From Defluviitalea saccharophila (GTDB lineage Bacteria > Bacillota > Clostridia > Lachnospirales > Defluviitaleaceae), in NCBI RefSeq assembly GCF_038396635.1, contig NZ_CP121687.1, forward strand, positions 2,656,592 through 2,720,591: a stretch of DNA of 64,000 nt, written 5' to 3'. Shown here piece by piece: positions 38,274 to 48,085 of this stretch. A program made the translations under genes and the position numbers. The first letter of the stretch is position 1. Every line of letters starts with the position of its first letter. The notes below the pieces were generated by a model. The model had not been told where the DNA came from. It was given only the letters and a program-made list of their open reading frames with translations, and ran no database searches.

Positions 38274-38336
38274 GACAGAGTATATTAAAAAGAAAAGCTT
38301 TGAGAGTGTTCTTTTGAATAAGAAAGATGATTGAGA

Positions 38337-38380
38337 AAACGGATTAGTCGGTGCAAGTGTACAGGACTAATCCGTTTTAT
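38337..38380 (+). terminator. Terminator of the cobalamin operon
   Basis: AAAACGGATTAGTC pairs perfectly with GACTAATCCGTTTT around a 15-nt loop, then ATTG. Confidence 0.92.
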
Positions 38381-38444
38381 TGTCTACGGAGCGTGGATTA
38401 TTTTTTAAAGTATTTTGGTTTATACTAAAGTCGAGGTGAGCACA

Positions 38445-38789
38445 ATGGATATAAGAAGGAAAAAAGAACTTTTGGAAATGTATAAACATAGACGCCCTGA
38501 AATGGGTGTTATATCTTATTGCTGTAAAGAAACGGGAGAAGCATTTTTGGGTATCTCTACAGATACAAAAGCAGACTTCAATAGTACCACTGTGAAACTA
38601 AATGCCAGGATGCATCCCAATAAACGATTGCAGGAACTGTGGAATCAATATGGTCAGGAAGGCTTTGAACTATCCGTTATTAAAGTCTTAAAATATGAAG
38701 ATCCCAATGAAGACCATACAGAGGAATTAGAAAAATTAAGAGAGCAGTGTTTTGCTGCTGATCCGAATGCAAGGAGGATATGGAGATGA
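38445..38789 (+). CDS. GIY-YIG nuclease family protein
   Basis: A 114-residue protein. The GIY-YIG-like pair is GVISYCCKETGEAFLGIS, with small-protein features typical of the UvrC/Slx1-like fold further on (NARMHPNKRLQELWNQYG and FELSVIKVLKYED). The second half is Glu-rich. GAGGTGAG precedes the ATG at 38445. The stop overlaps the next start (ATGA), so it is the first gene of a coupled three-gene unit with an unknown protein and an AAA-VWA fusion. The catalytic residues are only partly conserved, and it may bind rather than cut DNA. Confidence 0.78.
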   Translation: MDIRRKKELLEMYKHRRPEMGVISYCCKETGEAFLGISTDTKADFNSTTVKLNARMHPNKRLQELWNQYGQEGFELSVIKVLKYEDPNEDHTEELEKLREQCFAADPNARRIWR

Positions 38790-39250
38790 ATGAAAAAGCA
38801 GTTATTGTATCCAATGGATATGACCGTGTAGATGGCAGAAATGCTTACCAATCTGATATCAAGCGTTTAACTTTAGGAGAACCGATACTGGAAGAAAATA
38901 AAAAAATGCAGATTGCCGCACAGATATGGAAAACCGGTAAAGACGGAGAATTGGAGTTAGCTCAGGAATTACCGATTCATCAGGTGTTTGACTTGATGAT
39001 TTTACTATCCCGGACATTGCTGTACTTTAAAGAAGCCTATCGACTTCCCCTTTTATATGATCCGGAAAATCCGACTATAGAACGCGTTGGGGTGCAGGGA
39101 GGCGTTTTGCCCGTAGAAGTTTGTATTGATAACAAAAATATTAATGAGGACATCAAGGCGTTTGCCCAGAGCCTAAATGATTTAGGAGAAATTATTGGAG
39201 AGCGACAGCGCGTGCTGACACGAATTTTAGAAGAATTGGAGTGTTATTAA
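38786..39250 (+). CDS. Unknown protein, possibly DUF6530 family
   Basis: A 154-residue soluble protein with an unusual opening (VSNGYDRVDGRNAYQSDIKR), a middle helix HQVFDLMILLSRTLLYFKEA, and a C-terminal helical segment. I recall a DUF6530 group with this look but cannot confirm it. The ATG at 38786 is chosen for the ATGA overlap with the upstream stop and AGGAGG nine bases before; an ATG at 38780 is too close. Its TAA overlaps the next ATG by one base, so it is made together with the AAA-VWA protein and is probably its partner. Confidence 0.7.
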   Translation: MNEKAVIVSNGYDRVDGRNAYQSDIKRLTLGEPILEENKKMQIAAQIWKTGKDGELELAQELPIHQVFDLMILLSRTLLYFKEAYRLPLLYDPENPTIERVGVQGGVLPVEVCIDNKNINEDIKAFAQSLNDLGEIIGERQRVLTRILEELECY

Positions 39251-41289
39251 TGAGAAAGACCTGTGTACTGTCACCAGACAGACAGTTAACTGAAGAGGAA
39301 CAAGCCCTTGTCTGGAAAAAACCACCCTCACATATTGAAAGCGAGGCAGAAAAGCGCATTTATCAAGAAGTCGTAAGAAATTGGAATCGGGGCGAAATGA
39401 AAATCAGTACCATTTTACTAGAGGGTGATGCAGGTTCGGGGAAAACCCAGCTTGCCAAAGCTTTATCTGCTGCTTTTAATCTGCCTTATACTAAAATCAC
39501 CTGTTTTGCAGATATGGATAAGTCAGATATTTTAGGTTCTATTCTTCCGGTACTTTCGGAAGAAAATAGTCAATCAGATGCTGTGGAATACCGCTATTAT
39601 CCGTCAGAAATAGTTCGTGCCTATGAAAATGGATGGCTCTTAGAGATTCAGGAACCTACTGTGATTAGAGACGCTGCGGTCTTAATGGCGCTCAATTCCG
39701 TCTTAGAACCAGACGGCAGTTTGAATTTACCAACGCGCATCGCCCGAAGACACCCGGATTTTATTGCGGTAATTACAACAAACCGAGGGTACAATGGGTG
39801 TCGACCTTTAAACGAAGCATTGAGAGATCGAGTACAGCATGCAGAAAAGCTTGACTTGCCGCCTAAAGAAGTGATGATGGAACGGGCTAAAGCAAAGACC
39901 GGCTGTCAGTCGGAAGAGGTGCTTTCTCTTTTAGCGGAAACGATTATACTGCTAGATAAAACCGCTCGGGCAAATGCCATTAAAGGTGTAGCAGGAATGC
40001 GTTCCTATATTTTTTGGGTGGATGCCGTTCATAGTGGCGCTTCAATACAAGAGTCTTTGTATCATAAGGTACTTTATAAAATTACCACTGATCCACAGGA
40101 ACTTGGCATTTTAGAAGAGGCATTACAACGTCAAAGGTTAACTGAGAAGCTTAAAGAATTGGACAGTATCCATACTTCCCATTTAGAAAAGGAAAATCCC
40201 GAAGTCATGGAAATTAAACTTTCTGCAGATGGGGAGGTTTCTTCCGAAATAGACGAAGCAGACAAAGACGCAGTACGTTTAAGGAAATCAGCAGACCAAG
40301 AGGGAAGCTCAGATAAAAGCAGTGATGAAAATATCGCTATCTCAAGTAACGATAATGGGGAAAACGGAACACCACTATATCATGAATTGGATCAATCCAA
40401 GATCAATGAATCGCAGAAAAAAGAATTTCGCAAACAATTAAACAAAGAGGCGCGCCAAAGTGTTCAAGGCAGCCTTCATGAAGCTATCAAGCTGATTGTC
40501 CATCGTCCGGAAGCTACAGACCAAAACAGGGAAGAGTATCATAAGATGGCGGCTAGTTTGATGCCAGTTATTCGGGAACTCATTCATAAAACCAATCCGC
40601 TTTTGGAACATGAGGTTTCTACGGAATTTGCTAAATCCCAGCTTTACGGCACAAAGTTCTGTGCAGAGCAGGTTGCCTCAATGGATTTTCGTGTCTTTGC
40701 CCGAAAGCGTCCCCCGGAGGAAGAACCATCCCTTGCTGTGGCCCTCAGGATTGACGAATCCGCATCCATGTCAGCTTTTGGTCGTTTAGAAGCGGCAAAG
40801 CAGGCAGCAGTGGCATTATATGAATTCTGCACCGAGTGCGGTATTCCGATTATGGTTTACGGCGATACGGCAGACCGCTCCAAACTGGAGCAAATGTCTA
40901 TTTATTCCTATGTAGATTTTGAAAGTAAAGATCCGGATGAAAAGTATTCGCTTATGAACATTCAGGCCCGAAGCAATAACCGGGATGGTATGGCTTTACG
41001 CATTCTTTCTGACAGGTTGCTTAAGGCACCACAAAAAACGAAATTAATCATTAGTCTAAGTGATGGCCAACCTAAGGCTATGCCTGATTACACCGGGGAA
41101 AAAGCAGCTTATGATATGAAGAATACACTTCAGGAATACAGGCGAAAAGGCATTCAATTCCTTGCCGCAGCTATTGGGCAGGATAAAGAAGCTATCCGAG
41201 ATCTTTACGGAGCTGAAAATACATTGGATATAAGCGATTTAAAAGAGCTTCCAGCAAGATTGGTACAAATCATCGCAAGATTTTTATAA
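39250..41289 (+). CDS. MoxR-like AAA ATPase fused to VWA domain
   Basis: A 679-residue protein. The N-terminal AAA module has Walker A at residues 59-66 (GDAGSGKT), a Walker B-like GWLLEIQEPT, and ITTNRGYNGCRPLNEALRDR as sensor 1 and arginine finger. A charged, Ser/Asp/Glu-rich linker spans about 300-380. The C-terminal VWA domain holds the metal-binding DxSxS in VALRIDESASMSAFGR, later Thr in YGDTADR and Asp in ISLSDGQPK. One chain thus combines the two proteins of MoxR/VWA or CobS/CobT-type pairs that remodel or load metal into partner proteins. No cognate large chelatase is nearby. It is the last gene of the unit. Confidence 0.9.
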   Translation: MRKTCVLSPDRQLTEEEQALVWKKPPSHIESEAEKRIYQEVVRNWNRGEMKISTILLEGDAGSGKTQLAKALSAAFNLPYTKITCFADMDKSDILGSILPVLSEENSQSDAVEYRYYPSEIVRAYENGWLLEIQEPTVIRDAAVLMALNSVLEPDGSLNLPTRIARRHPDFIAVITTNRGYNGCRPLNEALRDRVQHAEKLDLPPKEVMMERAKAKTGCQSEEVLSLLAETIILLDKTARANAIKGVAGMRSYIFWVDAVHSGASIQESLYHKVLYKITTDPQELGILEEALQRQRLTEKLKELDSIHTSHLEKENPEVMEIKLSADGEVSSEIDEADKDAVRLRKSADQEGSSDKSSDENIAISSNDNGENGTPLYHELDQSKINESQKKEFRKQLNKEARQSVQGSLHEAIKLIVHRPEATDQNREEYHKMAASLMPVIRELIHKTNPLLEHEVSTEFAKSQLYGTKFCAEQVASMDFRVFARKRPPEEEPSLAVALRIDESASMSAFGRLEAAKQAAVALYEFCTECGIPIMVYGDTADRSKLEQMSIYSYVDFESKDPDEKYSLMNIQARSNNRDGMALRILSDRLLKAPQKTKLIISLSDGQPKAMPDYTGEKAAYDMKNTLQEYRRKGIQFLAAAIGQDKEAIRDLYGAENTLDISDLKELPARLVQIIARFL

Positions 41290-41383: not shown

Positions 41384-42238
41384 TTAAATATGTCTTATAT
41401 GCTTAGCTCTAAGGTTGGAAGGTGTGCATCCGTATGCTTCTTTAAACATATGATTAAATAATTTATAGTTGGTGAAGCCATGTCGTTCTTGAATGATTGT
41501 AATACTATCATCTGTTTGAAGTATGTCGTTATGAATTCGGGCAAGTCTTACCAAGTTAAGATATTTTATAAAAGTAAGTCCCATATGTTTTTTAAAAAAA
41601 CGGCAGAAATATTCCGGATTCAAAGCAACCAAAGAGGCTACTTGTTCCAGGGGGATGGGTTCTTGATAATGTTGTTCCACATAATCGATAATTTTCTTTA
41701 ACCGCCCCAAATGCTTGGTGGATTTGGTATCTTTTGCAGGATCTTTCAATATGGAGTAATTGCCATAGAGTATGTGCAGAAACAGATATAGTTCACTGAT
41801 AAATAAGAATTGATATCCTTCTTCTGCCTGAACATAAAGATTTGCTAGATTAAGAAGATGAGAGATCATCTTTTGATATATGGGATATTCATTTAGTTTT
41901 TTATAAGGATAATATTGTCTGAATTGTATCCTATCGAAATGCTCCACACACTGTTCAAGGAGTTCATAGGGGATTTGAAGCAACAGAACCTTAGAGGCAC
42001 CCAGACTTCTGGTAAAATGAATATCCCCGGAATTTACAACAAATAAATCATTCTGATGGAGGATGTATTTTTCCTCATTTAAAACAATATGATTTGTCCC
42101 CTCAAAAATGTACAGGATTTCTACATGATTATGCCAATGGTTAGGGATGATCTGATTATAAGTGTGGTAGATATCAAAATAAACAGGTAGTTGTGGTTTA
42201 GGAGTAATGATTTCATGGATGGACATTAGTTGATTCAT
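41384..42238 (-). CDS. AraC-family transcriptional regulator
   Basis: A 284-residue regulator with an N-terminal cupin-type sugar-binding domain (IIPNHWHNHVEILYIFEGTN, NDLFVVNSGDIHFTRSL) and two C-terminal helix-turn-helix motifs (IPLEQVASLVALNPEYFCRF, ITIIQERHGFTNYKLFNHMF). It is divergent from the beta-glucosidase gene, whose promoter carries a 22-bp direct repeat. It probably activates that gene when a plant-derived sugar is present. Confidence 0.93.
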   Translation of the reverse strand: MNQLMSIHEIITPKPQLPVYFDIYHTYNQIIPNHWHNHVEILYIFEGTNHIVLNEEKYILHQNDLFVVNSGDIHFTRSLGASKVLLLQIPYELLEQCVEHFDRIQFRQYYPYKKLNEYPIYQKMISHLLNLANLYVQAEEGYQFLFISELYLFLHILYGNYSILKDPAKDTKSTKHLGRLKKIIDYVEQHYQEPIPLEQVASLVALNPEYFCRFFKKHMGLTFIKYLNLVRLARIHNDILQTDDSITIIQERHGFTNYKLFNHMFKEAYGCTPSNLRAKHIRHI

Positions 42239-42300
42239 CCCTTCATATAAAGTATTTTTGGAAAATGTGTAGCTACGACGAAGGTATCATAGGACTATAA

Positions 42301-42341
42301 AAAAGTCAATATTGACTGAATAAAAAGTCAGAAATCGACTT
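42301..42341. promoter_or_regulatory. Likely AraC-family binding sites
   Basis: AAAAGTCA occurs at 42301 and 42323, 22 bp apart on the same strand, the two-turn spacing that AraC-type regulators favour. A 14-bp perfect palindrome (42304-42317, AGTCAATATTGACT) and an AAGTC-N7-GACTT repeat overlap it. Confidence 0.65.
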
Positions 42342-42343
42342 GT

Positions 42344-42378
42344 TTGAGAATTTTTATGAAGTATAAAATATAAGAAAA
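42344..42378 (+). promoter_or_regulatory. Possible beta-glucosidase promoter
   Basis: TTGAGA/TTGTTT-like -35 sequence just after the AGTC repeats is followed by TATAAAAT near 42362. The match is modest, as expected for an activator-dependent promoter. Confidence 0.4.
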
Positions 42379-42429
42379 TTCAAGTGATATATTAAGTCTC
42401 AGATTTATTACAGATTAGGGGGAATTCAT

Positions 42430-44853
42430 ATGATTAAATGGCAAAGGCCAAGGTTTCAGCCCAATTTGCCTTTGGGGGAAAACAATCAAAAGGTGACAGC
42501 ATCAAAAGAGCATCGAGAACTATCAAAGAATGCTGCAAAAGAAGGTATGGTTCTTTTAAAAAATATGAACCATGTCCTTCCATTGCCCAAAGGGTCAAAA
42601 GTTGCATTGTTTGGAAAAGGTACATTTGACTATGTTAAAGGCGGCGGTGGCAGTGGTGATGTGACGGTTGAATATGTTACTAATCTATATAACGGCATGA
42701 AGGCATTAAAGGAAAGAGTTACGGTGTTCGAGGAACTGGCAGATTTTTACCGAAAAAATGTTATGGAGCAGTATGCAAAGGGTGCCGTACCGGGCCTGAC
42801 AGTAGAACCGGAAGTTCCCCGTGAGCTTTTAGCAAAGGCTAGAGCATTTACAGATACCGCAATTATTTCTATTAGTCGTTTTTCAGGAGAAGGATGGGAT
42901 CGAAAAAGCACTTTTGACAAAAACAGCAACAATCTCATAGGACCTGAAGCACTTTTTGCAAAGAAAGCGGATGGAATCTATGAAAACGGTGATTTTTATC
43001 TGACCAAAAAAGAAATTGAAATGGTAAATGTTGTGAAAGAGGCATTTAACAAAGTTATTGTTGTTTTGAATGTAGGAGGTATTGTGGATACGGAATGGTT
43101 TGTAAATGACGATGCAATTCAATCGGTTTTAATGGCATGGCAAGGGGGCATGGAAGGAGGAAGTGCCGCTGCGGAGCTTCTTTGTGGAATAGGTAATCCT
43201 TCAGGCAAATTATCAGATACCTTTGCAAAAAGATTAGAAGATTATCCTTCTACATATAATTTCCACGAATCTGAAGACTACGTTGACTACACCGAAGATA
43301 TTTATGTAGGGTATCGTTATTTCGAGACGATTCCCGGTGCTGCAGATAAGGTCAATTATCCTTTTGGATATGGATTATCCTATACATCTTTTGATTATTC
43401 TGTTGCTTCAATAAGACAGGAAAAAGATTTTATTAAGGTTTTGGTTAATGTAACCAATACAGGTTCTATGGAAGGAAAAGAAGTCATCCAGCTTTATTTT
43501 GGAGCCTCTCAGGGACTTCTTGGGAAGCCTGCTAAAAGTTTAATTGCTTTCCAAAAGACTCGTTTACTGAAGCCTGGAGAGACTCAGCTTGTAAAACTTG
43601 AATTTTCGGTGGATGACATGGCTTCTTATGATGATTTGGGTAAGGTTCAGAAGTCTGCCTATGTTCTTGAGGCAGGGGAGTATGTATTTTTTGTCGGAAC
43701 TTCTGTAAGGGATGTACAAAGAATTGATTTTGTTTATACTGCACCTCAAAACAGAGTTGTAAAGCAGCTTACTGAAAAATTAGCCCCCACTTCATTAAAG
43801 GAAAGAATGCGGGCGGATGGAAGTTTTGAGAAACTTCCTCTAAAAGAACCTAATGATCCTGATGCATGCGGTATTGATAAAATGCCCATAGAAATGACAC
43901 AAGGGTATGCACCGGAAGTTCGTGCAAGAGGTCGTTATCAATTATGGAAAGAGTCACATGAAAACGGCATACATACTCTTTATGAGGTGGCTAACGGCAA
44001 GATTTCCATAGATGAATTCCTGGCACAGATGACAGATGAAGAAGTAGCCCATTTATTAGGCGGTCAGCCTAATACAGGGGTTGCCAATACTTTTGGATAT
44101 GGAAATATGCCAGAATACGGTATCCCTAATGTAATGACTGCTGATGGACCAGCTGGATTACGAATTGCCCCGGAATGTGGGGTTAATACGACTGCCTGGC
44201 CTTGTTCAACGCTCTTGGCTTGTACTTGGGATGCAGATATTGTATATGCAGTAGGGGAAGCAGGTGCCAAAGAAGTAAAGGAAAATAACATTTCAGTATG
44301 GTTAACTCCGGCAGTGAATATACACAGAAGTCCCTTGTGTGGCCGTAACTTTGAATATTATTCCGAAGATCCGTTTTTAACTGGCAAACTGGCTGCAGCC
44401 ATGGTAAAAGGGATTCAATCTCAGCATATTGGAGCAACCGTTAAACATTTTGCTCTAAACAACAAGGAGACCAACAGAAAGAACAGCGATTCCAGAGTGT
44501 CTGAACGAGCAGCCAGGGAAATTTATTTAAAACCCTTTGAAATCATTGTTAAAGAAGCAAAACCATGGAGCATTATGACCTCTTATAATATCATTAATGG
44601 ACATCGGGCATCTGAAAATAGAGAGCTGCTGGAAGATATCCTGAGAGGCGAATGGGGATGGGAAGGCATGGTCACTACGGATTGGTGGACCTATGGAGAA
44701 CATTATAAAGAAGTGAAAGCAGGAAATGATGTCAAAATGGGTTGCGGTTACCCGGAACGTCTTATGGAAGCCAAAGCATTAGGTTTAATTTCTCGACAAG
44801 AAATGGAAATTTGTGCAAAGAGGGTTCTTGAGTTAATTTTGAAATTGGATTAA
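42430..44853 (+). CDS. Beta-glucosidase, GH3 with permuted domain order
   Basis: An 807-residue glycoside hydrolase family 3 enzyme. Domain order is inverted: the GH3 C-terminal alpha/beta domain comes first (KNAAKEGMVLLKNMNHVLPL, KGGGGSGDV, DTEWFVNDDAI), then an FnIII-like domain (VNVTNTGSMEGKEVIQLYF). The catalytic TIM-barrel domain is last (GIPNVMTADGPAGLRI, NFEYYSEDPFLTGKLAAAMV, IGATVKHFALNNKETNR). The nucleophile Asp is in GMVTTDWWTYG. It releases glucose or similar units from beta-linked oligosaccharides. There is no signal peptide, so it acts in the cytoplasm on imported sugars. GGGGG precedes the start. Confidence 0.95.
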   Translation: MIKWQRPRFQPNLPLGENNQKVTASKEHRELSKNAAKEGMVLLKNMNHVLPLPKGSKVALFGKGTFDYVKGGGGSGDVTVEYVTNLYNGMKALKERVTVFEELADFYRKNVMEQYAKGAVPGLTVEPEVPRELLAKARAFTDTAIISISRFSGEGWDRKSTFDKNSNNLIGPEALFAKKADGIYENGDFYLTKKEIEMVNVVKEAFNKVIVVLNVGGIVDTEWFVNDDAIQSVLMAWQGGMEGGSAAAELLCGIGNPSGKLSDTFAKRLEDYPSTYNFHESEDYVDYTEDIYVGYRYFETIPGAADKVNYPFGYGLSYTSFDYSVASIRQEKDFIKVLVNVTNTGSMEGKEVIQLYFGASQGLLGKPAKSLIAFQKTRLLKPGETQLVKLEFSVDDMASYDDLGKVQKSAYVLEAGEYVFFVGTSVRDVQRIDFVYTAPQNRVVKQLTEKLAPTSLKERMRADGSFEKLPLKEPNDPDACGIDKMPIEMTQGYAPEVRARGRYQLWKESHENGIHTLYEVANGKISIDEFLAQMTDEEVAHLLGGQPNTGVANTFGYGNMPEYGIPNVMTADGPAGLRIAPECGVNTTAWPCSTLLACTWDADIVYAVGEAGAKEVKENNISVWLTPAVNIHRSPLCGRNFEYYSEDPFLTGKLAAAMVKGIQSQHIGATVKHFALNNKETNRKNSDSRVSERAAREIYLKPFEIIVKEAKPWSIMTSYNIINGHRASENRELLEDILRGEWGWEGMVTTDWWTYGEHYKEVKAGNDVKMGCGYPERLMEAKALGLISRQEMEICAKRVLELILKLD

Positions 44854-45089: not shown

Positions 45090-45701
45090 ATGGACTGTGT
45101 GAAAATAGGACAGTTGATTGCCAAGCTTAGAAAAGAAAAAAAGCTTACTCAAAAAAATATTGCAGATGCACTGGGGATTCAAAGTAAAACGGTTTCAAAA
45201 TGGGAATGTGGTTTAGGATGCCCGGATCTGTCTCTATGGCCAGAGTTATCTACCATTTTGGGTGTGGATATGAAACAGATGATGGAAGGCGAAATTACAT
45301 CAAACAAGCCGGACAGCGGAAACATTGACAAAGTACGTTTTTATGTTTGTCCTACTTGCGGCAATATTCTGGTCAGCACAGGAAGTGCCTCTATTTTCTG
45401 CTGTGGGAGAAAACTGGAACGTCTACTGCCTAAAGATGTATCGGATGCAATTAAAATTACAGTTGAGGAAATTGATATGGACTATTTTATAACCTTTGAC
45501 CATCCGATGACCAAAGAACATTATATTTCTTTTGTAGCTTATGTAAAGACCGATAGAGTATTTCTGAACCGTTTGTATCCGGAACAAAGCCCCACTTGCA
45601 GGATTCCTATGAATAAGGGCGGCAAATTCTATGTGTATTGTAATCAGCATGGATTAGTAGTATATTCTGATCAGGCTCTGAATCAAGCGGTGAAAAGATA
45701 A
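45090..45701 (+). CDS. XRE regulator fused to superoxide-reductase-like domain
   Basis: A 203-residue protein. Residues about 5-60 are an XRE helix-turn-helix (IAKLRKEKKLTQKNIADALG, SKTVSKWECGLGCPDLS). A Cys-rich segment (VCPTCGNILVSTGS, FCCGRKLERL) follows, then a desulfoferrodoxin-like fold with HPMTKEHYISFVAYV and CNQHGLVVYS, matching the His and Cys ligands of the superoxide reductase iron site. It probably senses oxidative stress or iron and regulates its own neighbours; whether it still reduces superoxide is open. GGAGGTGAG precedes the start. Confidence 0.85.
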   Translation: MDCVKIGQLIAKLRKEKKLTQKNIADALGIQSKTVSKWECGLGCPDLSLWPELSTILGVDMKQMMEGEITSNKPDSGNIDKVRFYVCPTCGNILVSTGSASIFCCGRKLERLLPKDVSDAIKITVEEIDMDYFITFDHPMTKEHYISFVAYVKTDRVFLNRLYPEQSPTCRIPMNKGGKFYVYCNQHGLVVYSDQALNQAVKR

Positions 45702-45716
45702 GGAGTGTTATAACTA

Positions 45717-46241
45717 ATGAAGAATTTTACAATTAAAGAGAGCATATTGTTTCAGCTTGATATGTGCTGGCAGCTTTATCTTTATTATACAAACAATTTG
45801 GATGAGGAAGAAGCATATTGGGGCTTTGTACCAACAAGTCTTAAGGTAAGAAAAGAAGCTGATCAATGGTCTATAGATTGGCCTGAAACCGAAAGCTATG
45901 AGATAGGACCTTCCAGTATCGCATGGATTATGTGGCATATTATATACTGGTGGAGCGCAGCATTAGACTATAATTTTGGAGCAGGTACCCTGAAAAAAGA
46001 AGATATCCTTTGGCCCGGAAGTATTGAAGAAGCAAAAGCAACGATACAGTCGCTTCATGATCAGTGGGTAGAAAAATTAAATGCATTATCGGATGCAGAT
46101 TTTCAATCCAACCTGCACTCCAAATGGCCGTTGGAAAATAGAAATTTTGCTGATACTGCACTTTGGTTAAATGGAGAGTTGATGAAAAATGTTTCAGAGA
46201 TAGGCTATGGGCGCTTCTTATATGCGAGCTGTAAAAAATAG
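45717..46241 (+). CDS. DinB-family protein
   Basis: A 174-residue four-helix-bundle protein of the DinB/YfiT type, with the metal-site histidine in IAWIMWHIIYWWSAALD and further helices IQSLHDQWVEKLN and ALWLNGELMKNVSEIG. Such proteins bind a divalent metal, and several are thiol-dependent transferases. It starts 15 bp after the XRE-fusion gene with AAGGAG, so the two are likely cotranscribed. Function in detail is unknown. Confidence 0.82.
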   Translation: MKNFTIKESILFQLDMCWQLYLYYTNNLDEEEAYWGFVPTSLKVRKEADQWSIDWPETESYEIGPSSIAWIMWHIIYWWSAALDYNFGAGTLKKEDILWPGSIEEAKATIQSLHDQWVEKLNALSDADFQSNLHSKWPLENRNFADTALWLNGELMKNVSEIGYGRFLYASCKK

Positions 46242-46428
46242 AGCGAATAAGGATTATGATGCCAAAAACTTAACAATGATTGATTGGGAATAGAACTGGG
46301 GATATAATTATATTTAACCGTAGAGATTTAGAATTATTCAGAGTTTTAGGCTAAAAAACGGAATAACTTAAAGACTTGTGCTAAAAATAATGATTTATAA
46401 ACTTTAAATATGGAAAGGAAAGTTGTGT

Positions 46429-46656
46429 ATGAACCCAGGACAAGAAATGTTTTATAATTTTTTTATGGAACGGGCAAAAGATGATAAAAAGGAAGAAGCA
46501 AAAGCATTACTGGAAGAAGGTTTTGCTCGTCAGGACGCTGGAACATTTGATAAAGCCTATTTTGAAGAAACCCTACCTAAATATTTTGAGCTCATAAAAC
46601 CTGAAGCAATTGAGGAAGTAAAAGAAGCGATGAATCATTTTGCATCAAGATTATAA
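46429..46656 (+). CDS. Small helical protein, unknown
   Basis: 75 residues, acidic, fully helical in appearance (GQEMFYNFFMERAKDDKKEE, FDKAYFEETLPKYFELI). GAAAGGAAAG lies before the ATG at 46429, while a TTG at 46423 is less likely. Not recognised. It lies between DinB and a flavodoxin remnant. Confidence 0.7.
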   Translation: MNPGQEMFYNFFMERAKDDKKEEAKALLEEGFARQDAGTFDKAYFEETLPKYFELIKPEAIEEVKEAMNHFASRL

Positions 46657-46759
46657 ATATAAGTATTATAAGGAAAGGATAAGGTAGCTATTCCCTTGTC
46701 TTATGTATTACCCAGGAATTTTTAATTCTTTTATAAAATTTATTATAAAGGATGATTAC

Positions 46760-46891
46760 ATGGGAGCAAATAAAATATCTGAAAATATCTTGATTGTTTA
46801 TTATTCACTTTTCAAATCCACAGCGAATTTAGCATTGAAAATAGCAGCACAAAAAAACTATCCAATGAATAAAATACGAACTTTTTCATAA
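46760..46891 (+). pseudogene. Flavodoxin N-terminal remnant
   Basis: 43 codons after AAAGGATG. NILIVYYSLFKSTANLALKI is the first strand and phosphate loop of a flavodoxin, but the frame stops after NKIRTFS and no continuation is seen in the next 40 bases. Real flavodoxins are about 140-170 residues. This is either a broken gene or a very short relic. Confidence 0.55.
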
Positions 46892-46929
46892 GATAAAAGA
46901 CAAAGTCAAAATAATAAGGAGCGATTAGA

Positions 46930-47169
46930 ATGGATAAGCCTGTAATTGCCGGGAAATCACCTATTCAAGTGGAACTTAAAAAGGGTGAAACTTATTATTG
47001 GTGTTCATGTGGAAGAAGTTCCAATCAGCCATTTTGTAATGGTGCACATAAAGGCACTTCATTTTCACCTATGGAATTTACTGCTGAAAAAGATGAAACA
47101 GCATATTTGTGTGCCTGCAAGCAAACCAAAAATCCTCCATATTGTGATGGAACACATAAAAGTCTATAG
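46930..47169 (+). CDS. Double CDGSH iron-sulfur protein
   Basis: 79 residues with two CDGSH-type motifs, CSCGRSSNQPFCNGAH and CACKQTKNPPYCDGTH, each expected to hold a [2Fe-2S] cluster bound by three Cys and one His. It would act in electron or cluster transfer. AAGGAG lies upstream, and a strong terminator follows the gene by about 55 bp. Confidence 0.93.
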   Translation: MDKPVIAGKSPIQVELKKGETYYWCSCGRSSNQPFCNGAHKGTSFSPMEFTAEKDETAYLCACKQTKNPPYCDGTHKSL

Positions 47170-47223
47170 TTTTATTGTAGCTACCTAAATATCAAGCTAA
47201 AAACCATATAACGAAAGAAATAT

Positions 47224-47262
47224 AAAAATTGTACTCCCAGTTCAGAGGGCGTACAATTTTTT
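47224..47262 (+). terminator. Terminator after the CDGSH gene
   Basis: AAAAATTGTACTCCC and GGGCGTACAATTTTTT form a near-perfect stem with an 8-nt loop and a T run. Confidence 0.92.
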
Positions 47263-47497
47263 GTTATCTATATAATACATTAACGGAATGTACTTGATTT
47301 TCCTGTTGTACAGATACCTATTAATTTGAGTTGGGATGGAAAAACAATTTGACGTTGGAAGAACTATAAGGGATATTTTCAAGTGTAGAACGAAAAAAGG
47401 GGAGTTTTGAGAAGCTTTATAATGAAGTGAGGCAGATAGTATCCCGATGAACAAATATAATCTAACAGGCATTTAACCAACAAAGGAGTGAGATAGG
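47263..47497. other. Intergenic region before the GrpB gene
   Basis: No intact gene. A plus-strand stretch around 47345-47450 reads like protein but is broken by stops, so it could be a relic. Confidence 0.35.
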
Positions 47498-48085
47498 ATG
47501 TCCTCGGAAAGAAACGATACACCTATAAGCGATAAAGAACTTCGAAAGATTACAATAGGAGACCTGAAACCACATAATGCACAAATCACTATTGTTGAAT
47601 ATGATCCGGACTGGTCCCAAATTTTCGAACGGGAAGCAAACCGAATTCGATCGGTACTCGGCAAAAAAGCTTTGCAAATTGAACATGTTGGTTCTACTTC
47701 CGTTCCGGGACTTTGTGCCAAGCCGATCATTGATATAGTGCTGGTTGTGGAGAATTCTGCAGATGAGCCATCCTATGTTCCGGCATTGGAAGCTGCCGGC
47801 TATAGCCTGCGCATTCGAGAACCTGAATGGTTCGAACATCGTTTGTTCAAAGGACCTGATACGGATATTAACCTACATGTGTTCAGTAAGGGAACATCTG
47901 AAATAGATAAGATGCTTCTATTTCGTGACTGGCTGCGTTCTAATGAGAGTGATCGCAACAAATATGCACATGTTAAGCGAGCGTTGGCAAAGAAAGAGTG
48001 GCGACATGTTCAGCACTATGCAGATGCCAAAACATCCATAGTACAGGAAATCATGGCACGGGCCAATGAGTCACATGAAAAATAA
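47498..48085 (+). CDS. GrpB-family protein (nucleotidyltransferase fold)
   Basis: A 195-residue GrpB/UPF0157 protein with the nucleotidyltransferase-like core IVEYDPDWSQIFEREA, LQIEHVGSTSVPGLCAKPI (GSTSVPG with the following IDI acids) and RLFKGPDTDINLHVF. The family sits in the polymerase-beta superfamily; substrates are unproven. AAAGGAGTG precedes the start. Its codon use looks slightly more GC-rich than its neighbours. Confidence 0.92.
   Translation: MSSERNDTPISDKELRKITIGDLKPHNAQITIVEYDPDWSQIFEREANRIRSVLGKKALQIEHVGSTSVPGLCAKPIIDIVLVVENSADEPSYVPALEAAGYSLRIREPEWFEHRLFKGPDTDINLHVFSKGTSEIDKMLLFRDWLRSNESDRNKYAHVKRALAKKEWRHVQHYADAKTSIVQEIMARANESHEK

Follow-up and report, generated by a model that had tools for sequence, protein, structure and literature searches.

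Relation to known MoxR-VWA systems

NorQ/NorD consists of a MoxR AAA+ protein plus a von Willebrand factor A (VWA) protein and serves iron insertion into the nitric oxide reductase cNOR, according to the available parts of two reports (PMC9976466, PMC13036017). Ternary conflict systems are described, in the accessible part of the source, as separate MoxR and vWA proteins with variable effectors and a third component that is VMAP, iSTAND, FtsH or a beta-propeller (PMC7159879). Here we describe a locus of Defluviitalea saccharophila (contig NZ_CP121687.1, positions 2,656,592 to 2,720,591; this stretch of 64,000 nucleotides is referred to as the window) that encodes a GIY-YIG-fold protein (gene 1), a protein of the Pfam family DUF6530 (gene 2), a single-chain AAA-VWA protein (gene 3) and a regulator with helix-turn-helix (HTH) and desulfoferrodoxin (Dfx) domains (gene 4), and that is preceded by a conserved 18-bp block, GTCTACGGAGCGTGGATT. 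We propose, with a probability of about 50%, that these genes form an operon that moves horizontally and serves the ATP-driven remodelling of proteins, controlled by a redox-type regulator that binds iron. An earlier reading of the letters alone (the sequence-only reading) had placed genes 1 to 3 here, joined by an ATGA overlap (genes 1 and 2) and a TAATG overlap (genes 2 and 3), and all boundaries and both junctions proved to be as given. It thereby recognized a real system; at the same time it chose the wrong gene as the key one and missed both the fourth gene and the conserved upstream site.

As the sequence-only reading had it, gene 3 joins a MoxR/NorQ-type AAA+ domain, a charged linker and a VWA domain with a metal ion-dependent adhesion site (MIDAS) in one chain. 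The AAA_5 match is above the Pfam cut-off (expectation value, E, 3.7e-14), whereas VWA_2 and CobT_C stay under their cut-offs (E about 0.001-0.003); for the VWA half, a profile comparison with NorD (E 3.9e-6) gives further support. Midasin, NorD, CbbQ and CobS are the solved structures nearest in sequence. Walker A residues K65 and T66 as well as N178, R192 and R194, with sensor and finger roles assigned by eye, are kept in 23 of 23 sequences, as are the MIDAS residues D502, S504 and S506 with D605. Walker B reads LEIQE (Gln134-Glu135) in all 23, while CbbQ and CobS have Asp-Glu at the aligned place.

NorQ/NorD shares with gene 3 the MoxR/NorQ-type AAA+ domain, the MIDAS VWA domain and the linker (PMC9976466 and PMC13036017, available parts) and may, by analogy, be its best mechanistic model. 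The present unit differs by its single polypeptide, by Gln for Asp in Walker B and by the co-encoded DUF6530 protein, GIY-fold protein and regulator, and no nitric oxide reductase was seen beside it. With the MoxR-vWA ternary conflict systems, as far as they are covered in the accessible text (PMC7159879), the unit has in common a MoxR-vWA core and a constant third component; here, however, the constant partner is DUF6530, the core is a single chain and Pfam found no added effector on the VWA chain. The link to these systems that the sequence-only reading had drawn was therefore not borne out, the conserved partners being DUF6530, GIY and HTH-Dfx proteins instead of VMAP, iSTAND, FtsH or beta-propeller. 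CobS/CobT of cobaltochelatase shows weak sequence similarity to both halves of gene 3.

Conservation of the four-gene unit

We collected 46 loci by a scan with the DUF6530 protein and then sought the partner genes by tblastn. A GIY homologue was found in 40 of them and an AAA-VWA homologue likewise in 40, with both in 38 and all four genes in 32. Among the eight loci without the full trio, L069 and L075 end inside the unit (contig ends). A broken GIY gene is carried by L043. We further screened 398 Bacillota genomes, 64 of which encoded PF20140. All eight intact AAA-VWA genes in this sample adjoin a DUF6530 gene of the window type, and all eight full-length DUF6530 genes of this type adjoin an AAA-VWA gene, at the same eight places; the type was recognized by a lower score and a missing N-terminus, with short partial matches at contig ends left untyped. 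Four further matches are fragments. The linkage is far beyond chance, and the conservation of the unit that the sequence-only reading had proposed to check is supported. Gene-to-gene distances also correlate (r 0.66-0.94), which fits joint travel; these values are without control for common descent and were not used as proof.

DUF6530 proteins fall into two branches, the larger of which is often found with a GIY gene but without an AAA gene: a GIY partner was present in 20 of 30 loci of this branch and an AAA match in none of the 30 (flanks up to 1.5 kb; wider gene maps were drawn for 14 of these loci). A Listeria record annotates a DUF6530-GIY pair without the motor as well, and an Enterococcus faecium plasmid carries a DUF6530-AAA pair with no room for a GIY gene. 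Since pairs with each occur separately, DUF6530 is the common partner of the GIY protein and the motor. An AAA/VWA pair on a Ruminococcus albus plasmid was rejected as a relative, its small neighbour showing no DUF6530 match. Lone, distant DUF6530 genes were also observed on small plasmids (2.6-11.7 kb) of Enterobacterales and Acinetobacter (e.g. L101, positions 1-2593), and 15 of 5426 Escherichia coli genomes matched a stretch of DUF6530 plus neighbour in part or as a whole, three of them over most of its length, all on plasmids. These small plasmids gave no clue to the function of the lone DUF6530 genes.

A probable redox-type regulator as the fourth gene

Clustering of flanking proteins revealed a fourth family after the AAA-VWA gene in 32 loci, and tblastn found a gene 4 homologue in 33 of 46 loci, with some of the others ending too early. 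The eight intact units of the 398 genomes all carry gene 4, directly after the AAA-VWA gene in seven and 3.8 kb away in the genome of the window, where an insertion with AraC and GH3 genes (41384-44853) separates it from gene 3. In relatives these two genes are not at that place and gene 4 follows gene 3 directly. Gene 4 matches HTH_3 (E 6e-9) and lies 1 bit under the Pfam cut-off for Desulfoferrodox, and its family profile matches desulfoferrodoxin 2ji2 with E 2.2e-13. A full superoxide reductase (SOR) iron site consists of four histidines and one cysteine. In an alignment of 22 gene 4 sequences the four desulforedoxin cysteines (CxxC...CC), H138, H144 and C184 are invariant and H187 is conserved in at least 90%, while the first SOR histidine has no counterpart.

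This architecture is that of the HTH-Dx-SOR proteins, which were classed in 2011 and have an HTH followed by desulforedoxin (Dx) and SOR-like domains (SORGOdb, PMC3116461, accessible part). Gene 4 shows the same domain order with a cysteine spacing of CX2CX13CC rather than CX2CX15CC. The accessible part of the SORGOdb description gives no operator or regulon, whereas gene 4 is associated with an operon and its 18-bp site and has one SOR histidine less. A literature search surfaced no operator for HTH-Dx-SOR proteins, full texts being mostly outside that search, and the accessible parts of the papers on TrtA (PMC12724145) and Cap0037 (PMC5050335) held nothing on HTH-Dfx regulators. HTH-Dfx genes were present in 31 of the 398 genomes (E 1e-25). 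By eye, some stand-alone HTH-Dfx regulators (among L174, L180, L187, L189 and L191) neighbour flavodoxin- or flavin-reductase-like genes, and a chloramphenicol-acetyltransferase-like gene lies near the one of L174.

An 18-bp operator candidate shared with stand-alone regulators

The region before the first gene diverges among the 25 upstream stretches compared, except for GTCTACGGAGCGTGGATT. The block is exact in 37 of 45 loci and has at most two mismatches in 39, in 37 of which a -10 box follows exactly 21 bp downstream. Its 3' end overlaps the expected -35 position; the putative operon promoter was not picked up by a consensus promoter scan. L043 and L064 have the exact block at a different place, ahead of a GIY gene that is broken or lost, and L074 has a relaxed copy with one mismatch at the usual place. 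L072, L073 and L076, with no block within two mismatches, belong to the other DUF6530 branch. There is one copy of the block in the window (0.02 expected), and the complete 3.0-Mb genome contains one exact match to the relaxed pattern given below, as it does for the reversed control.

Six of the eight intact units in the 398 genomes have the exact block, one (G003) has two mismatches and one (G346) only the relaxed pattern with one mismatch. The relaxed pattern, with no more than one mismatch, is present in all eight. The remaining two exact copies lie before a major facilitator superfamily (MFS) gene (G368, locus L040) and at a contig end (G280). Within two mismatches there are 31 places in these genomes, among them another three that lie before stand-alone HTH-Dfx genes (L145, L146, L148); most others look like chance, and the reversed control pattern gives seven. 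No operator was found in the DNA examined from Paenibacillus L073 and E. faecium L100, both with DUF6530-AAA and no gene 4 seen.

A relaxed form of the block, TCTACNNNNCGTNGRT, was sought with at most one mismatch within 250 bp upstream of the start. It precedes 14 of 16 stand-alone HTH-Dx-SOR genes (10 exact; 14 genera among the 16), whereas it occurs in 4 of 353 control windows and the reversed pattern precedes none of the 16 genes. Because of this contrast the 18-bp block is probably an operator of the HTH-Dx-SOR family. Directly before gene 4 inside units the site was found in 0 of 23 cases, which fits one promoter at gene 1 that serves gene 4 as well. We rejected the block as a terminator: a scan called it terminator-like, but several loci have no T run there, and the start is inferred to lie downstream of the block. 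In L040 the exact operator (positions 1068-1085) precedes, at a distance of 41 nt, an MFS exporter gene that lies shortly before the unit, and on this basis the predicted regulon can include an efflux-type transporter.

The GIY-fold and DUF6530 proteins

Gene 1 showed no significant Pfam family. Its AlphaFold model (predicted local distance difference test, pLDDT, 82) matches I-TevI with a Foldseek E of 5.2e-5 and a VIA Z of 12.8 (89 aligned residues, 2.1 A), so that the GIY-YIG-type first protein of the sequence-only reading holds as to fold. The gene 1 profile finds I-TevI weakly (E 0.13-0.17). In GIY-YIG nucleases two tyrosines and an arginine (Y6, Y17 and R27 of I-TevI) have a catalytic role. 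In all 34 gene 1 homologues, the positions aligned to the tyrosines (23 and 34) are I/F/V and F, respectively, and the one aligned to R27 (position 44, in this weak alignment) is D, A, G, K or S and never R. E96 is a glutamate in 30 of 34, and the alignment stops short of the metal-binding glutamate of I-TevI. With the two tyrosines and the arginine lost in all homologues, nuclease activity is unlikely; gene 1 shares the fold of the nucleases and probably encodes a pseudo-GIY protein, and the nuclease-like partner that had been suggested from the sequence is not supported.

Gene 2 had been called a 154-residue unknown. The size was right, and the protein in fact belongs to the Pfam family DUF6530 (PF20140). 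Its model (pLDDT 79) had no confident fold match. A reading as a PC4/YdbC-like (PC4/PUR-like) single-stranded DNA binder came from weak fold matches (VIA Z about 3) and an impression by eye; profile-profile comparison gave it no support, and profile scores were not above those of shuffled decoys. Against PDB sequences the DUF6530 profile found only 6smd, a malonyl-CoA transacylase, with E 0.097, which we took as chance, and a viral structure library gave no match at E <= 0.001. A literature search found no paper naming DUF6530. The Listeria gene lmo0729 is, we assume, a DUF6530 gene. It appears in the table of a mutant screen (PMC3091722, accessible part).

Proposed mechanism and points against it

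In the proposed mechanism, gene 4 would bind the 18-bp operator, which lies immediately 5' of the -35 position of the operon promoter and extends into it, and would thereby control genes 1 to 3 and, in the usual gene order, itself. The likely signal would be a change at the desulforedoxin Fe(Cys)4 site and/or the partial SOR iron site of gene 4, for which O2, superoxide, nitric oxide or iron state are candidate inputs. The AAA-VWA protein may form a MoxR/NorQ-like ring that holds a partner by the MIDAS face of its VWA domain; ATP hydrolysed by the ring would serve to pull or twist this partner. DUF6530 and the pseudo-GIY protein are the probable adaptor or client complex, perhaps nucleic-acid-binding, since DUF6530 pairs elsewhere with a GIY-fold protein even without the motor. 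The unit might in this way protect its host in oxidant or drug stress. More tentatively, HTH-Dx-SOR proteins might be a family of iron-based regulators on a shared palindrome (TCTAC-N4-CGT-N-GRT), one branch of which has been recruited to a mobile oxidant-stress machine with a MoxR-VWA motor working DUF6530 and the pseudo-GIY protein.

Several points weigh against this proposal. ATPase activity is not assured because of the Gln that replaces Asp in Walker B. The signal of gene 4 is uncertain because the first SOR histidine is missing. The 37 exact blocks in 45 loci include many near-identical copies and overstate independence. The 16 stand-alone loci are those of 20 in which a start was found; of the four dropped, L173 is an incomplete gene match, and at the expected distance L172, L175 and L176 carry a sequence four to five mismatches away from the strict block. 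Two of the 16 fail at one mismatch (two mismatches in L174, no site in L189), and the broken unit L192 has no site. Operator counts are also optimistic because some of the upstream sequences counted had already served to refine the relaxed pattern; the contrast of 14 of 16 to 4 of 353 is large despite this refinement. Finally, the insertion in the genome of the window separates gene 4 from the rest of the operon, and gene 4 there lacks a separate operator.

Mobility, genomic setting and alternative explanations

Eight loci (L034, L036, L050-L053, L056 and L098) share long DNA blocks that are 92-98% identical and span Caproicibacter, Heyndrickxia, Anaerotignum, Lutispora, Hathewaya, other Clostridia and a contig of a viral collection. 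In most of these loci the upstream side carries serine recombinase genes, and in most there are MFS, ABC-F or nucleotidyltransferase genes on the downstream side. We scanned the first 150 of 199 flanking proteins (120-560 aa, within 3.5 kb), a set that ends with L065 and leaves out eight loci that are duplicates, of the window's own lineage or of the other DUF6530 branch. Among these 150 there were nine Mef(A) and three Msr matches (E 1e-30), two Arr and two APH matches (E 1e-8) and eight matches to Recombinase. PADLOC gave one SduA and at most seven PDC-type candidates, the rest being broad ATPase or methyltransferase-like models. The setting in part of the loci is thus that of a resistance-carrying mobile element more than that of a defence island, and the clustering with defence genes that the sequence-only reading had considered was not found in this set.

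The unit could instead be drug-tolerance cargo, that is, a passenger of resistance elements that shields the target of a drug, for example the ribosome, or aids efflux under drug stress, with a regulator that senses redox side-effects of the drug. The mef(A)- and msr-type genes and serine recombinases on DNA shared between unrelated genera speak for this, as does the exact operator before the exporter gene in L040. Many copies, however, have no resistance-type gene in the stretch examined, and genes of other kinds surround the DUF6530-GIY pairs as well as the DUF6530-AAA pair of E. faecium. We regard this explanation as unlikely, though the strongest of the alternatives.

Less probable is a machine of the CobST or NorQD kind that would serve a cobalt or iron enzyme as metal chelatase or in metal insertion; it would account for the resemblance of the VWA domain to CobT_C and NorD and of the AAA domain to CobS and CbbQ, for the adjacent cobalamin operon and for the iron-type regulator. 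CobN, however, is absent from six of seven genomes with the unit, D. saccharophila included, and the neighbour clusters that occur most often showed no metalloenzyme. Only the window and L032, which is of the same lineage (99.9% DNA identity), have the cobalamin operon before the unit, and this operon ends in a strong terminator, so that transcription of the unit is very likely separate. A cobaltochelatase reading based on this neighbour was rejected for the same reasons, and the clustering with metal genes raised from the sequence was seen in this lineage alone.

An anti-phage defence unit with a GIY nuclease effector, as the sequence-only reading had suggested, is improbable. Mobility, patchy occurrence and the combination of a motor with a GIY fold would suit it, as would a match between gene 1 and a PADLOC model of homing endonucleases (E 3.4e-5), but the GIY active-site residues are lost, few defence genes lie nearby and the regulator is of a redox type; gene 2 had no PADLOC match and gene 3 only weak ATPase matches (best E 3.2e-4). 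Least probable of all, the 18-bp block could be an attachment site or the end of a mobile unit, as upstream sequence diverges at the block and recombinase genes lie upstream in several loci, a reading that fits poorly with the fixed 21-bp spacing to the -10 box and with the same palindrome before stand-alone HTH-Dx-SOR genes and the MFS gene.

Other features of the locus are listed in Table 1. The DNA match of the window continues through DinB_2 in L044 and L054, a DinB_2 cluster was found in five loci, and the GrpB-family gene has 80% DNA identity to L098 over 314 bp. Together with a CDGSH-like gene (by eye), the DinB_2 and GrpB genes (45717-48085) look like remnants of the cargo of a mobile element. 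In Hathewaya (L056, 8615-9597) about 1 kb with two extra open reading frames, probably an insertion sequence, interrupts the AAA-VWA gene; these frames also have copies elsewhere in the loci, and breaks occur in several more copies of the unit.

Table 1. Features in and around the unit (window coordinates)
Feature	Position	Strand	Remarks
Intrinsic terminator of the upstream cobalamin operon	38336-38378	+	fold -24.1 kcal/mol, z -7.8; T-rich end
Proposed operator GTCTACGGAGCGTGGATT, quasi-palindrome TCTACG-GAG-CGTGGA, 18 bp	38382-38399	+	upstream of gene 1
-10 box TATACT	38421-38426	+	21 bp 3' of operator; putative promoter role
Gene 1, GIY-YIG-fold protein (pseudo-GIY), 114 aa	38445-38789	+	fold match; probably not a nuclease
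Gene 2, DUF6530 protein, 154 aa	38786-39250	+	PF20140, E 2.2e-49
Gene 3, MoxR/NorQ-like AAA+, charged linker, MIDAS VWA, single chain, 679 aa	39250-41289	+	Pfam, profiles, residues
AraC regulator	41384-42238	-	Pfam; part of insertion between genes 3 and 4
GH3 glycosidase	42430-44853	+	Pfam; part of insertion between genes 3 and 4
Gene 4, XRE-HTH plus desulfoferrodoxin (HTH-Dx-SOR type) regulator	45090-45701	+	Pfam, family profile, metal ligands
DinB_2 protein, cargo, not core	45717-46241	+	3' of gene 4 in some relatives
GrpB-family gene, cargo, not core	47498-48085	+	PF04229, E 1.4e-54; shared with mobile element of L098

Implications

The novelty of the locus lies in a variant of the MoxR-VWA theme and in a new, testable candidate operator for HTH-Dx-SOR proteins. 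The 18-bp site with its fixed promoter spacing makes the regulatory role of these proteins directly testable, and it also gives a handle on two uncharacterized proteins, DUF6530 and the pseudo-GIY protein. If the more tentative reading of a recruited regulator branch is right, the unit would represent a redox-gated AAA+ system of a new kind in anaerobes, with a motor that has an unusual Walker B. The unit has been swapped between Clostridia and Bacilli, in several cases along with resistance-type cargo, and may bear on how anaerobes survive oxygen or drugs.

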